Shown piece by piece: positions 47,336 through 56,941 of a stretch of 64,000 bases of DNA. Positions within the stretch are counted from its first letter, which is position 1; every line of letters starts with the position of its first letter. The notes below the pieces were generated by a model, which saw only the letters and a program-made list of their open reading frames with translations, was not told the origin of the DNA and searched no databases. This DNA comes from Flavobacteriaceae bacterium (lineage in GTDB: Bacteria; Bacteroidota; Bacteroidia; Flavobacteriales; Flavobacteriaceae), in contig JALRDO010000008.1 in NCBI GenBank assembly GCA_023262185.1, positions 1-64,000 of the forward strand, written 5' to 3'. The translations under genes were made by a program, and so were the position numbers.

Positions 47336-47734
47336 GTTGAGAGGATGTTAGTAATTCAAACTTAAGTGTTAAGAACTTATAATAAGAAAAACTTGTGTTT
47401 TCTATATATAAATGTAATGTGATAAATCAGTGTAAAAAGCAAAAATAACTTTGAAATTCTATCGACTATTTATCAGCACTGCTTAATGAGATATAAACAT
47501 CAAAAACTGTTTAAAAATTTCAACAATTAATTAGCGAAAATCATATGAACAATACGTTTATAACCAAATCAAAAAATTGATATAGAAATATTTAGCTTCA
47601 TATAGTGTTGTGTATAAAATCTAATAAGTGAAGAATCTAAAGAAAGGGTAAAAAGTTATTCTACTTACGAACAAGCTATAATAATACCCATATCTTCGAA
47701 TAGAAATAGAAATAGAGTATTCTATTATTAACAG
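47336..47734. other. 400-base very AT-rich intergenic region upstream of rnr
   Basis: No gene is supportable. The region is markedly more AT-rich than most of the window and carries runs such as TATATATAAATG and TTTAAAAATTT. One perfect DnaA-box-like sequence TGTGTATAA (47609-47617) and one single-mismatch box (TTATTAACA, just before rnr) are visible. A repeat TAGAAATAGAAATAGAG lies at about 47701-47717. Its role, whether an origin, a promoter region or acquired sequence, cannot be decided. Confidence 0.5.
47357..47364 (-). promoter_or_regulatory. -7 box of rpiB
   Basis: TAAGTTTG on the minus strand, a perfect TAnnTTTG match ending 21 bases before the rpiB ATG. Confidence 0.5.
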
Positions 47735-52139: not shown

Positions 52140-53626
52140 GGCTTAAGCTGAGCTATTGCGCGTTTAATGCGCTCAGCGGTCTCGTTTTTGCCGAGAAACG
52201 TCATTAGACTATAAACAGAAGGCCCTTTTAATGACCCCACAAGGGCTATGCGAAGTGGCGCCATAACTTTGCCTATACCAAGCTCCCTTGAGCTTACATA
52301 TTCTTTAAGACGCCCCTCAAGCGCAGACTCCTCAAAAGAGGTTGTTTGTGCTAGGGCCATAAAGCCTTCTAAAAGCTCAGCGGTCTCTTCTTTCCATTGT
52401 TTCGCAACGGCGCTTTCGTCGTAAACCCCAGGAGCGTTGAAGAAGTATCCGTGTTCTGTATCAAGGTCTGCTGGAAAAATCAGGCGCTCTTTGACAAACA
52501 CAAGAGCCTTTTTAAGCCGATCATACGGAACGTCTTGTAGTTTAGGCGCCCCTATTATGCACTGTTCTATAAGCGCATTGTCGTCCATTTTTTGTAGGTG
52601 TTGTTGGTTAAACCAACGCAGCTTTTCTACGTCAAATCGCGCTCCTGCCTTTTGAATACCATCCATCGAAAAGGAGTCGATCATTTCTTGAAGGTCTAAC
52701 ACCTCTTCGTCGGTTTTGTTGCTCCACCCAAGCAGGGCTAAGAAATTTAACAGGGACGCTGGAAGATATCCTTCTTCTTTAAAACCTTTAATGCCACTCC
52801 AGGTTAAGGGGTAAACAGGAAACCCTCCGGCCTCGCCGTCGCGCTTGCTTAACTTTCCTTTTCCGTTCGGCTTAAGAATCAGAGGTAAATGCGCAAACTT
52901 TGGCGGCTCCCACCCAAAAGCTTCGTACAGCAGAAAGTGAAGAGGCAAAGAAGGGAGCCATTCTTCTCCGCGAATAACATCAGTGATCTCCATAAGGTGG
53001 TCGTCAACAACGTTCGCAAGGTGATAAGTGGGCATTCCGTCGCTTTTGAACAGCACCTTGTCGTCAAGAGTATTGGTGTTTACGGTAACCGCTTGACGCA
53101 CCTCGTCACTAATGGTTAAGATGCGATCGGCCTCCATTTTAAAGCGAACAACGTAAGGAACCCCTTCTTCTAACAATTGGGCTACAGCAGTCTTCTCAAG
53201 GGTTAGGCTATTACGCATGTTCATGCGCGTGTGACAACCATAACTGAAATGTCCTTTATTCTCAGTTGCTTTTTGGCGCTCCTTTTCAAGGTCCTCGGCA
53301 CTGTCAAATGCATAATAAGCCTTTCCCTGCTCCAAAAGTTGAGTTACATATTCGCTGTAGACAGAGAGCCTTTCGCTTTGACGGTAAGGACCAAAGCTTC
53401 CATGGTGTTCAGGGCTCTCGTCTGGAGGAATCCCAGCCCAAGCTAGCGCGCGCTGGATATACTCTTCAGCCCCCTCTACGTAGCGATTTTGATCGGTGTC
53501 TTCTATGCGCAAAATAAAGGCGCCGCCCTTTTGTTTGGCAAGGAGGTAATTGTATAAAGCAGTTCTCAACCCTCCAATGTGTAAGGGTCCGGTTGGGCTC
53601 GGGGCAAATCGTACGCGTACCGACAT
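52136..53626 (-). CDS. gltX: Glutamyl-tRNA synthetase
   Basis: Charges tRNA-Glu with glutamate. The 496-residue protein has RFAPSPTGPLHIGGLRTALYNYL (HIGH region), LRIEDTDQNRYVEGAEEYI, PTYHLANVVDDHLMEITDVIRGEEWLPS and the KMSKS-type KGKLSKRDGEA near residue 260. The C-terminal domain with SALEGRLKEYV is present. Presence of a separate GlnRS suggests this enzyme is specific for tRNA-Glu, which is inference. Confidence 0.97.
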   Translation of the reverse strand: MSVRVRFAPSPTGPLHIGGLRTALYNYLLAKQKGGAFILRIEDTDQNRYVEGAEEYIQRALAWAGIPPDESPEHHGSFGPYRQSERLSVYSEYVTQLLEQGKAYYAFDSAEDLEKERQKATENKGHFSYGCHTRMNMRNSLTLEKTAVAQLLEEGVPYVVRFKMEADRILTISDEVRQAVTVNTNTLDDKVLFKSDGMPTYHLANVVDDHLMEITDVIRGEEWLPSLPLHFLLYEAFGWEPPKFAHLPLILKPNGKGKLSKRDGEAGGFPVYPLTWSGIKGFKEEGYLPASLLNFLALLGWSNKTDEEVLDLQEMIDSFSMDGIQKAGARFDVEKLRWFNQQHLQKMDDNALIEQCIIGAPKLQDVPYDRLKKALVFVKERLIFPADLDTEHGYFFNAPGVYDESAVAKQWKEETAELLEGFMALAQTTSFEESALEGRLKEYVSSRELGIGKVMAPLRIALVGSLKGPSVYSLMTFLGKNETAERIKRAIAQLKP

Positions 53627-53640
53627 GGGTAATCTTTTTT

Positions 53641-53648
53641 CAAAGGTA
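53641..53648 (-). promoter_or_regulatory. -7 box of gltX
   Basis: TACCTTTG on the minus strand, ending 14 bases before the gltX ATG at 53626. It is divergent from the ybeY box about 23 bases away. Confidence 0.5.
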
Positions 53649-53671
53649 ATACTATCAAAATGATCAATTGG

Positions 53672-53679
53672 TATCTTTG
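53672..53679 (+). promoter_or_regulatory. -7 box of ybeY, ending 4 bases before a GTG start
   Basis: TATCTTTG at 53672-53679 lies inside the frame that starts at the ATG at 53660, but 4 bases before an in-frame GTG at 53684. This favours the GTG as the real start and a leaderless transcript. Confidence 0.5.
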
Positions 53680-53683
53680 TGCG

Positions 53684-54106
53684 GTGGAAAGCCTTGTGTT
53701 TTTTGATGGTTTACCTCCCACAGCTGTCTCTTCAAGAAATTGGAAAGATCGGATTGGGAGGGCTATGGCTTTTCTTGACCTCGAGCTCGAGGTTTTCTAC
53801 AAGTTCATTACAGACGAAGAAATGCTTGTTGAAAACAACCGATTTCTAAATCACGACACCTATACCGACATCATTACGTTTGATTTACGCAATGATGGAC
53901 TCAACGAGGCTAATATTTTCATTAGTTATGAGCGGGTTAAAGAAAACGCTGAGGAGTTCAAAAGTCCATTCGAGACAGAGCTGTTCAGAACTATGGTGCA
54001 CGGCCTTCTTCATCTTACAGGACAAGGAGACAAGACCGCAGACGACGAAGCGCTGATGCGAAAGAAAGAAGACGAATTAATCCAAATGTTTCACGTGGAA
54101 CATTGA
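53684..54106 (+). CDS. ybeY: Endoribonuclease YbeY
   Basis: A zinc-dependent RNase for rRNA maturation and ribosome quality control. The protein is 140 residues from the GTG at 53684, or 148 from the ATG at 53660; the promoter box between them favours the GTG ([12 protein letters not shown]). Motifs are [14 protein letters not shown] and [14 protein letters not shown], the Bacteroidota form of HGxLHLxGxDH, in which the third ligand is less clear. The last codons (MFHVEH) are written by a parS-like site. Confidence 0.9.
54087..54102. promoter_or_regulatory. parS-like ParB-binding site
   Basis: TGTTTCACGTGGAACA is a 16-bp palindrome matching the conserved parS consensus (TGTTnCACGTGnAACA). It lies at the very end of ybeY, encoding MFHVEH. 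ParB binds such sites near the origin and seeds chromosome partition. A second site lies 1.9 kb downstream. Confidence 0.85.
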
Positions 54107-54110
54107 CGCT

Positions 54111-55979
54111 ATGTTTGAAGAATTTTACGACGTTATAGTGGTTGGTGCAGGCCATGCAGGCGCAGAAGCCGCCGCCGCCTCTGCTAATATGGGCATGAAG
54201 ACGCTTTTGATCACCATGAATCTGCAGACTATAGGCCAAATGTCTTGTAACCCGGCCATGGGAGGAATCGCCAAAGGCCAAATCGTTCGAGAAATTGATG
54301 CTCTTGGTGGCTATAGCGGTCTAGTTAGCGACGAAAGCGCCATACAGTTTAAGATGTTGAACCGCTCTAAGGGCCCTGCCATGTGGAGCCCGAGAACCCA
54401 GAATGACCGCATGCTTTTCGCAGAGTCCTGGCGCATTCGACTCGAGCGCACACCAAACTTAGACTTCTATCAAGAAATGGTGACCAGCCTCTTGGTCGAG
54501 GGAGAGTCTGTTGTGGGCGTTGCAACCACTCTTGGTATTCATATACGGGCGAAAAGGGTGGTACTCACGAACGGCACCTTTCTCAACGGGCTTATTCATA
54601 TTGGAGAGAAAAACTTTGGCGGCGGAAGGGCTGGAGAAAAGGCCTCTTTTGGAATTACCGAACAGCTGGTTGATCTCGGCTTCGACGCCGGGCGCATGAA
54701 GACCGGAACCCCTCCACGGGTCGATAGTCGGTCTTTAGACTATTCTGTGATGATCCCCCAACCCGGAGACGAACGCCCAGGACACTTTAGTTATTTGAAG
54801 GAATTCACCTTGGATCGCCAAATCGACTGCCATTTGACACACACCTCAGAAGAGGTCCACGACCTATTGCGATCAGGCTTTGATCGATCGCCGATGTTTA
54901 ATGGGAACATACAATCAATCGGGCCACGCTATTGCCCTTCAATTGAAGATAAGATCAATCGCTTTGCTGAAAAGGATAGTCACCAAATTTTTGTAGAGCC
55001 TGAGGGATGGAAGACCGTCGAAGTTTATGTTAACGGATTTAGCACCTCGCTTCCGGAGGATGTTCAATACACCGCCTTGAGAAAGGTAAGGGGGTTTGAA
55101 AAGGTTAAGTTTTTTAGGCCGGGTTACGCTATTGAGTACGACTACTTCCCTCCTACCCAACTTAAGAACACCCTAGAAACAAAACTGATTAAAGGGCTCT
55201 ATTTTGCCGGTCAAATCAATGGCACAACGGGGTATGAAGAAGCGGCTAGCCAGGGGATTATGGCAGGGATCAATGCTGCCCTTAGCATTCAAGAAAAGGA
55301 ACCGTTTGTTTTAAGGCGCGACGAGGCCTATATAGGGGTGCTCATAGACGACCTTATCACCAAAGGAACAGAAGAACCTTATCGCATGTTTACCTCGCGG
55401 GCTGAATACCGAACCCTGTTGCGTCAAGACAATGCCGACCTAAGGCTTACAGAGCGCTCTTATGAAATGGGGCTTTCCAAGTCAGATCGAATGAAGGCTA
55501 TGGAGATCAAGTTGCAAGAGACTGAAGCGCTCATGAAGTTTTTCACAAACACCTCGTATCCGCACCAAGAGGCTAACACGCTTTTGTCTTCAGTTGATTC
55601 GGCCTTGGTGAAGCAAGACGACAAGCTGTACAAACTTTTGTCAAGACCCAAATTGACCCTTGAACACATGAAGACCCTTAGCCCTGTTGCCGACTATTTT
55701 GCAACACACAACCCTAGCGAGGACGCGGTGGAACAGGTAGAAGTAGGCATTAAGTATGCTGGCTATATTGACAAAGAAAAGGCGAATGCCGACAAACTTA
55801 CCCGGCTAGAACACGTTAAAATTCCTGAAGGATTTGACTACACCCTACTTAAGTCGTTGTCTTTTGAGGCGCGAGAAAAACTAGGCGCAATTAAACCTTC
55901 AACGGTTTCACAAGCCTCCAGAATTAGCGGCGTTTCGCCTTCTGATATAAGTATATTGTTGGTTCACCTAGGACGATAG
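54111..55979 (+). CDS. mnmG: tRNA uridine 5-carboxymethylaminomethyl modification enzyme MnmG
   Basis: An FAD enzyme that, with MnmE, modifies U34 of certain tRNAs. The 622-residue protein has [20 protein letters not shown] (FAD motif), [56 protein letters not shown], and the C-terminal helical domain with [10 protein letters not shown]. mnmG (gidA) is a classical origin-proximal gene in many bacteria. It lies between the two parS-like sites, 4 bases after ybeY. Confidence 0.98.
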
Positions 55980-55994
55980 GTTCCACGTGAAACA
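55979..55994. promoter_or_regulatory. Second parS-like site
   Basis: GGTTCCACGTGAAACA differs from the classical TGTTCCACGTGAAACA at the first base only. It fills the gap between mnmG and the methyltransferase, whose start codon touches its last base. With the site at 54087 it brackets mnmG. Confidence 0.8.
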
Positions 55995-56806
55995 TGTTTA
56001 TGGAGATTACAGATCATTTTTTGTCAAAGGAGCGCTTCGAACTCGTCTATGATCAGGAGATAAAGGCGTATAAAACAACCCCAGCGCCCAGCAATCTTAC
56101 AGCCTATTACAACACCCCAAACTATTATTCCCACAACAACAAAGGCCTGTCGCTGACCGAAAGGCTTTACAGTGTTGCCAAGCGTTTTCGGAATCGCCAG
56201 AAATGGAAGCTTGTGACGCGCTCAATCAATGTCTCAAGTCGCCCAATATACGCCTTAGACTTTGGAAGCGGAGACGGCACTTTTATTGCAACGGCCCCCA
56301 CCGCAGTGAACGCTTTTGGTGTCGACCCCCTCTCTCCTAAGAACGCAACCTTTAAGACGCTAGAAGACGCCAAGACACCGACTCGTCGCTACGACATTAT
56401 CACGGCATGGCACAGCCTAGAACACACCCATAACCCGAAGGAGGTTTTGAGAGCAATGGTCGAGCTTCTGGAAGAAGATGGCCGTATTCACATTGCGGTT
56501 CCGAATTATAATTCTTGGGACGCACAACACTATGGCCATTTTTGGGCCGGATACGATGTGCCAAGACACTTGTGGCATTTTTCTAAAGAAAGTTTTGTGA
56601 CGCTTGCTGCTCAGCTTGATTTGGAAATTGGCGAAATAAGACCCCAGTGGTTTGACGCTTTTTACGTGAGCTATTTGTCTGAAGCTTACAAAGGCAACCC
56701 TAAACCCCTTTTAAAGGGCGCCTACGAGACCACAAAGGCCCTTTTCACCCTAAAAGCCCTTAAACAACCTTCTGCACTCTATTTGCAATTGAAAAAAGCA
56801 AAATAA
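55994..56806 (+). CDS. Class I SAM-dependent methyltransferase
   Basis: A 270-residue protein with a Rossmann methyltransferase domain. Motif I is LDFGSGDGTF near residue 94, followed by ITAWHSLEHTHNPKEVLRAM, LLEEDGRIHIAVPNYNSWDA and a further FWAGYDVPRHLWHFSKESF, as in sugar or polyketide-type methyltransferases. The N-terminal 60 residues have YYNTPNYYSHNN and may be a substrate-binding part. Substrate unknown. Starts may be the ATG at 55994 or at 56000. It follows mnmG, separated by the parS-like site. Confidence 0.85.
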   Translation: MFMEITDHFLSKERFELVYDQEIKAYKTTPAPSNLTAYYNTPNYYSHNNKGLSLTERLYSVAKRFRNRQKWKLVTRSINVSSRPIYALDFGSGDGTFIATAPTAVNAFGVDPLSPKNATFKTLEDAKTPTRRYDIITAWHSLEHTHNPKEVLRAMVELLEEDGRIHIAVPNYNSWDAQHYGHFWAGYDVPRHLWHFSKESFVTLAAQLDLEIGEIRPQWFDAFYVSYLSEAYKGNPKPLLKGAYETTKALFTLKALKQPSALYLQLKKAK

Positions 56807-56941
56807 AGCCCTCTGCCGTCTTTTTGGAGGGCGCCCGCCACTTGTACACCTAAAATTTTCGAAACACGCTTAAAATGAAGCATAGCGCCCCACTCACACA
56901 TAAGGAAACCTTATGGAAGGACAAAACACAATAAGAAAGCC
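56807..56941. other. Short gap with hairpins after the methyltransferase
   Basis: The gap contains three inverted repeats: GCCCTC/GAGGGC at 56808-56832, ATAAGG-AAA-CCTTAT at 56900-56914, and ACAATAAG-AAAGC-CTTATTGT at about 56929-56949 overlapping the DoxX-like stop. The last, followed by a T-rich stretch on the minus strand, could terminate the DoxX-like transcript. Confidence 0.45.

Follow-up and report, generated by a model that had tools for sequence, protein, structure and literature searches.

Two parS-like sites flank mnmG

The window (the whole 64 kb stretch of DNA that was analysed, from a Flavobacteriaceae bacterium) carries mnmG, also known as gidA, between ybeY and a methyltransferase gene, and a parS-like palindrome lies at each of the two gene junctions. 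The features of the locus are as follows.

53660-54106, + strand: ybeY, rRNA maturation RNase (TIGR00043; PF02130 over residues 39-142)
54087-54102, no strand assigned: putative parS site 1, TGTTTCACGTGGAACA, over the last six codons of ybeY
54111-55979, + strand: mnmG (gidA), between the two sites (TIGR00136, 837.6 bits)
55979-55994, no strand assigned: putative parS site 2, GGTTCCACGTGAAACA, with one mismatch, at its first base
55994-56806, + strand: class I SAM methyltransferase, immediately downstream of site 2 (PF13489)

Compared with the degenerate 16-bp consensus TGTTNCACGTGNAACA, site 1 has no mismatch and site 2 has one, and both fit the 16-bp palindrome TGTTTCACGTGAAACA if one or two changes are allowed. 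The distance from the start of site 1 to the start of site 2 is 1892 bp. An earlier sequence-only reading had proposed two parS-like sites around mnmG, 1.9 kb apart, and its coordinates and mismatch counts (0 and 1) are confirmed. The 3' end of ybeY reads ATG TTT CAC GTG GAA CAT TGA, encoding MFHVEH, and site 1 extends from the second base of the Met codon to the second base of the His codon; the same reading was thus correct that a DNA site and a protein end share these bases. The PF02130 match in YbeY extends to residue 142, just short of the tail encoded by parS, and the TIGR00043 match reaches residue 147. The first base of site 2, the mismatch, is the G that forms the third base of the mnmG TAG stop, and its last base coincides with the A of the listed ATG start of the methyltransferase ORF.

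Both sites are rare in the genome. Within the 64 kb window they are the only matches at up to two mismatches, and two or more such matches were seen in just 1 of 100 shuffles of the window. The draft genome that was searched comprises 1,644,868 bases in 87 contigs and is 93.84% complete. At up to two mismatches, TGTTNCACGTGNAACA was found at six places in the whole draft, compared with two for a control pattern read backwards. At up to one mismatch it was found at three, namely the two window sites and C87:34681 (TGTTGCACATGTAACA), which lies within an unrelated ORF and is three mismatches away from the stricter pattern TGTTYCACGTGRAACA. A search of the 1.64 Mb draft for TGTTYCACGTGRAACA itself, again at up to one mismatch, left just the window pair, 1.9 kb apart, and the control gave none. 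The random scatter around the genome that would speak against parS was therefore not seen in this one-mismatch search: with TGTTYCACGTGRAACA the sites are few and clustered, and the looser pattern containing N adds one distant place. By our own arithmetic, the chance of two randomly placed sites falling within 1.9 kb of each other is about 0.2%. At 94% completeness, the draft may lack another site.

The pair is conserved at the same gene junctions in relatives

A set of 59 genomes, the window's own included, was analysed for the presence of the sites. A site with up to one mismatch was found in 54 of them (112 sites in total, against 11 control matches), and three of the remaining five (G026, G040, G046) have two-mismatch versions beside mnmG. 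At the level of the class, 358 of 395 genomes have a site.

The position of the sites relative to mnmG was assessed in 133 loci, of which 56 come from the 59 genomes and 77 are named loci. Absent are G007 and G015, with no mnmG match, and G025, where mnmG is split over two contigs. The named loci are 80 stretches minus the duplicates L155, L158 and L172, and because those 80 are the best-scoring of at least 589 confirmed stretches, they lean to Flavobacteriaceae. Sites were scanned for up to 400 bp upstream of the MnmG GxGHAG motif and, downstream, over the last 20 bp before the stop codon and the 400 bp that follow it. At up to one mismatch, a site lies upstream of mnmG in 110 of 130 assessable loci (20 without) and downstream in 97 of 130 (33 without), and both sides are marked in 88 of the 127 loci that were fully assessable. 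Allowing two mismatches, the number of loci with both sides marked rises to 97 of 127, and 7 have a site on neither side. A reversed-letter control gave 0/130 matches upstream and 0/130 downstream, and no site was found inside mnmG in any of the 127 loci. These counts are not independent events, because the 133 loci are related. Grouped by genus within the relatives set (up to two mismatches), both sites occur in at least one genome for 31 of 43 assessable genera and at least one site in 41, the two exceptions being the genera of G033 and G050. Where both sites are present (101 loci), they are 1888-2153 bp apart (median 1911), a distance that corresponds closely to the length of mnmG. In 102 of 130 assessable loci, mnmG is followed by a homologue of the methyltransferase.

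Among the best 80 of at least 589 stretches, the MnmG closest to that of the window (86% identical) is encoded by L155, a Flavobacteriaceae MAG, which is the same sequence as G003 and belongs to the same genus as the window organism. In four Flavobacterium records (L187, L188, L190, L223) and in L175, the 400 bp upstream of mnmG hold not one but two to five parS-like sites at up to two mismatches, as would be seen after a local multiplication of parS. L175 carries the record title of a Limnohabitans MAG, a name at odds with its MnmG. An extra one-mismatch site away from mnmG was also seen in three genomes of the same genus as the window organism (G007:C24:9222, G002:C45:7816 and G006:C48:6113). 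The first of these (L113 9222) falls between the rpiB/rnr side and lepA, where the window has no match at up to two mismatches.

In sampled relatives, the sites lie close to the GC-skew switch

Since parS sites cluster around the origin, the sequence-only reading had judged the window to be probably within a few tens of kb of oriC; gidA is indeed known as an origin-associated gene, according to the accessible part of PMC2099444. Cumulative GC skew was sampled in five of nine long-contig genomes (G034, G035, G037 and G046 were left out), from 20 stretches per genome, each 20 kb long and more closely spaced around the sites, which gives a resolution of tens of kb. The five are single contigs of 2.6-4.4 Mb, and in each of them the sites lie near the interpolated skew minimum, at 12.5 kb in G033, 43 kb in G024, 79 kb in G031, 80 kb in G048 and 60 kb in G052, so that all five fall within 12-80 kb. 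On the window's own contig (82,209 bp) the cumulative minimum is at 37.4 kb, 17 kb from site 1; 10 of the 12 three-kb bins before 36 kb are negative and 7 of 12 from 48 kb are positive. This signal is consistent with a nearby origin, although weak. The proposed proximity to oriC is therefore supported at 12-80 kb in five relatives and is plausible for the organism's own 87-contig draft, and a skew minimum far from the sites was not seen in the relatives. Overall, the sites most likely mark the replication-origin region of the chromosome.

In the nine long-contig genomes, treated as circles, dnaA lies 0.54-1.92 Mb from the mnmG/parS locus, and it looks a poor origin marker in this group. The single contigs of G024 and G046 open at dnaA, 0.93 and 0.54 Mb from the locus, respectively. 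A search of the window for DnaA boxes gave 9 matches at up to one mismatch where 12.6 were expected, and therefore oriC is not placed by boxes. An AT-rich segment of about 400 bp (47336-47734), between the divergent rpiB and rnr and 6.4 kb from site 1, is a possible oriC region; it holds only one DnaA-box-like word (47609, one mismatch).

In G033, mnmG and the sites have parted. Its mnmG lies at 1277 kb with no site nearby, 280 kb from three exact sites at 997-999 kb, which surround a gene homologous to the methyltransferase gene of the window, near rnr, and coincide with the skew switch. The simplest account is that mnmG moved away while the sites remained at the origin. Because these sites are at the skew switch without mnmG, they track the origin and not the gene, which argues that mnmG is a neighbour rather than the target of the sites, with room for a regulatory or spacing role given the conservation of the pair elsewhere.

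Such a role could be the main reason for conservation if ParB, or another CACGTG-binding protein, sat at both ends of mnmG and controlled its expression within a ybeY-mnmG-methyltransferase operon, tying tRNA modification to the copying of the origin. The marking of both mnmG ends in 97 of 127 loci and the narrow range of spacing in the 101 loci with both sites speak for it. That spacing, however, is little else than the length of mnmG, the sites of G033 have stayed at the skew switch without the gene, and promoter-like sites show no excess over 53600-56900 (1 found, 3.9 expected). We consider it unlikely that regulation is what mainly preserves the sites.

The YbeY tail and the mnmG stop codon bear the imprint of the sites

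The overlap of site 1 with ybeY raises the converse reading, that a functional C-terminal peptide, MFHVEH, is what is conserved and the palindrome is incidental. YbeY was found directly upstream of mnmG in 120 of the 133 loci. The site lies wholly within the ybeY ORF in 48 of these, over its end in 2 and only beyond its stop in 59, and there is none in 11. A C-terminus of the form FH[V/M][E/K] is present in 47 of the 120 YbeY proteins, which speaks for such a peptide; these belong to 44 of the 48 ORFs that enclose a site and to 3 of the 59 with a site only after the stop. In those three (L187, L188, L190) the end of ybeY lies outside the stretch scanned for sites.

The codons used in the 47 tails follow parS and not the amino acids. 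His is CAC in all, Glu or Lys is GAA or AAA in all, and Val is GTG in 45, with Met (ATG) replacing it in the other two (L189, L211). Phe alone wobbles, between TTT and TTC, exactly at the degenerate base (Y) of parS. For comparison, across ten CDSs of the window CAC makes up 0.59 of His codons, GTG 0.28 of Val codons and GAA 0.62 of Glu codons. Moreover, of the 59 ybeY genes with the site only beyond their stop, the other 56 have an intact site but no FH[V/M][E/K] tail, and three of the four site-bearing ORFs without the tail (L060, L216, L234) read the terminal site in a different frame; in the fourth, L099, a one-mismatch site lies 304 bases ahead of the stop. The tail also lies outside the Pfam match, and FHM occurs where the core of the site is CACATG. 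The invariant parS-compatible codons and the 56 tail-less genes with an intact site therefore show that the YbeY peptide follows the DNA. The MFHVEH tail is a by-product of the DNA site, and it is the DNA rather than the peptide that is under constraint; peptide conservation as the cause is contradicted and we give it next to no credence. The comparison of YbeY C-termini that the sequence-only reading had called for thus identifies MFHVEH-type tails as a consequence of the site.

L189 (a Kordia MAG) and L211 have several site copies upstream of mnmG with a CACATG core in place of CACGTG, and a YbeY tail of FHM instead of FHV. This concerted shift of parS may match a change in ParB.

A second imprint is seen at the downstream junction. 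In 14 loci the downstream site shares bases with the mnmG stop codon, which is TAG in all 14, and the off-consensus first base of the site is always an A or G supplied by that codon. In site 2 the mismatch thus reflects a trade-off between parS and the stop codon.

The palindromes could also be RNA elements (terminators or attenuators) or chance matches, since site 1 can form a short RNA hairpin; however, folding is no better than in shuffles (z of -0.64 and -0.11), no terminator-like match falls on either site and the reversed-letter control is empty on each side of mnmG, so that conservation and control counts rule both out almost completely.

The genome encodes a ParB with parS-type specificity residues

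One ParB scoring above the family cut-off was found in the draft genome. It contains the ParB_N and HTH_ParB domains and a GERRLRA motif, which we take to be the CTP-binding motif of ParB. A ParA gene lies beside it, and parAB is on a different contig from the window in the draft. Two genes on from ParB and ParA is what is presumably a dapB-like gene.

Four positions determine specificity, and in an alignment with a Noc chain, using the positions given in the accessible part of PMC7383237, they are R-Y-K-G in this ParB. The same part of that paper reports that R173 and G201 are absolutely conserved in ParB orthologs and are Q and R, respectively, in Noc. The genome therefore has a cognate ParB with parS-specific residues and an adjacent ParA. 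In NCBIfam the Noc model gave the top score for this protein (229.4 bits), a PDB search placed a Noc chain marginally above Spo0J/ParB chains, and K occupies the position of residue 184, as it does in Noc. These points would favour Noc-type binding sites (NBS), acting in nucleoid occlusion, over parS. Yet the Noc score falls short of the family cut-off (315), the residues aligned to 173 and 201 are R and G and not the Q and R of Noc, and the two sites lie together instead of being scattered. On these grounds the NBS reading was rejected as highly improbable.

ParB is present in 56 of the 59 genomes of the relatives set. Of the three others, G050, with a genome of 0.3 Mb, has neither ParB nor a site, and sites are present in G013 and G058 (80% and 83% complete) with no ParB found. 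The distance between ParB and the mnmG/parS locus is 0.17-1.5 Mb in the nine long-contig relatives. The parS identity put forward in the sequence-only reading is hence supported by genome-wide rarity, clustering, a matching ParB and the conservation of both positions in relatives.

Discussion

From these sequence comparisons, the two palindromes are very probably genuine chromosomal parS sites and apparently constitute the whole ParB-loading centromere, with selection acting on the DNA. ParB loads at parS, spreads on the neighbouring DNA and separates new origins together with ParA and SMC, according to the accessible part of PMC7333895. By analogy with known ParABS biology, ParB, encoded elsewhere beside ParA, would load on both sites as a clamp and spread over the ybeY-mnmG-methyltransferase segment from two loading points 1.9 kb apart. 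Together with ParA, and probably an SMC-type complex, it would then move the newly copied origin region. Selection acts on the DNA of the sites, and since the genes here adjoin so closely, one site is translated as the tail of YbeY and the other falls over the mnmG stop.

A more speculative extension is that parS-mnmG-parS is itself a selected unit. It would be a two-clamp centromere in which the spacing of about 1.9 kb, or the load of ParB over mnmG, has been held across many genera, whether to serve segregation or to couple tRNA modification with the copying of the origin; we regard this as doubtful.

The mnmG-flanking parS pair allows the origin region to be recognised simply from sequence in a group where dnaA is distant (nine long-contig genomes). 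It would also be a clean natural case, judged at the sequence level, of a DNA-binding site that imposes its sequence on the end of a protein and meets a stop codon. Our literature searches, which covered work other than Livny et al. 2007, found no paper on parS flanking mnmG in Bacteroidota, and neither the two-sided placement around mnmG nor the imprint on the YbeY tail and the stop codon was seen in them. Livny et al. 2007 is reportedly the main comparative paper and the likeliest place for a prior record of the arrangement.

Among known systems, Noc and its NBS sites, as described in the accessible part of PMC7383237, share a paralogous DNA-binding fold with the ParB found here and differ in their specificity residues, which are Q and R instead of the parS-type R and G. 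Also close are the gut bacteria, Bacteroides included, in which parS clusters and Hi-C were used to place ori (PMC10197239, accessible part). There, as here, a parS cluster together with the GC-skew switch is taken as the origin and dnaA is not a reliable origin marker; neither mnmG nor gidA occurs in the accessible text of that paper, whereas in our loci the position is tied to mnmG. A further comparison is with chromosomal ParABS as described in the accessible part of PMC7333895, with which the present system shares the 16-bp parS consensus, a ParB with an adjacent ParA and one to a few origin-clustered sites. Unlike in that system, the two sites here keep the same gene junctions on either side of mnmG in 97 of 127 loci, and parAB lies apart from them, on another contig in the draft and with ParB 0.17-1.5 Mb away in the nine long-contig relatives. 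Origin-proximal parS is an already known kind of element, and what we describe is ordinary parS sites in a strikingly conserved arrangement.
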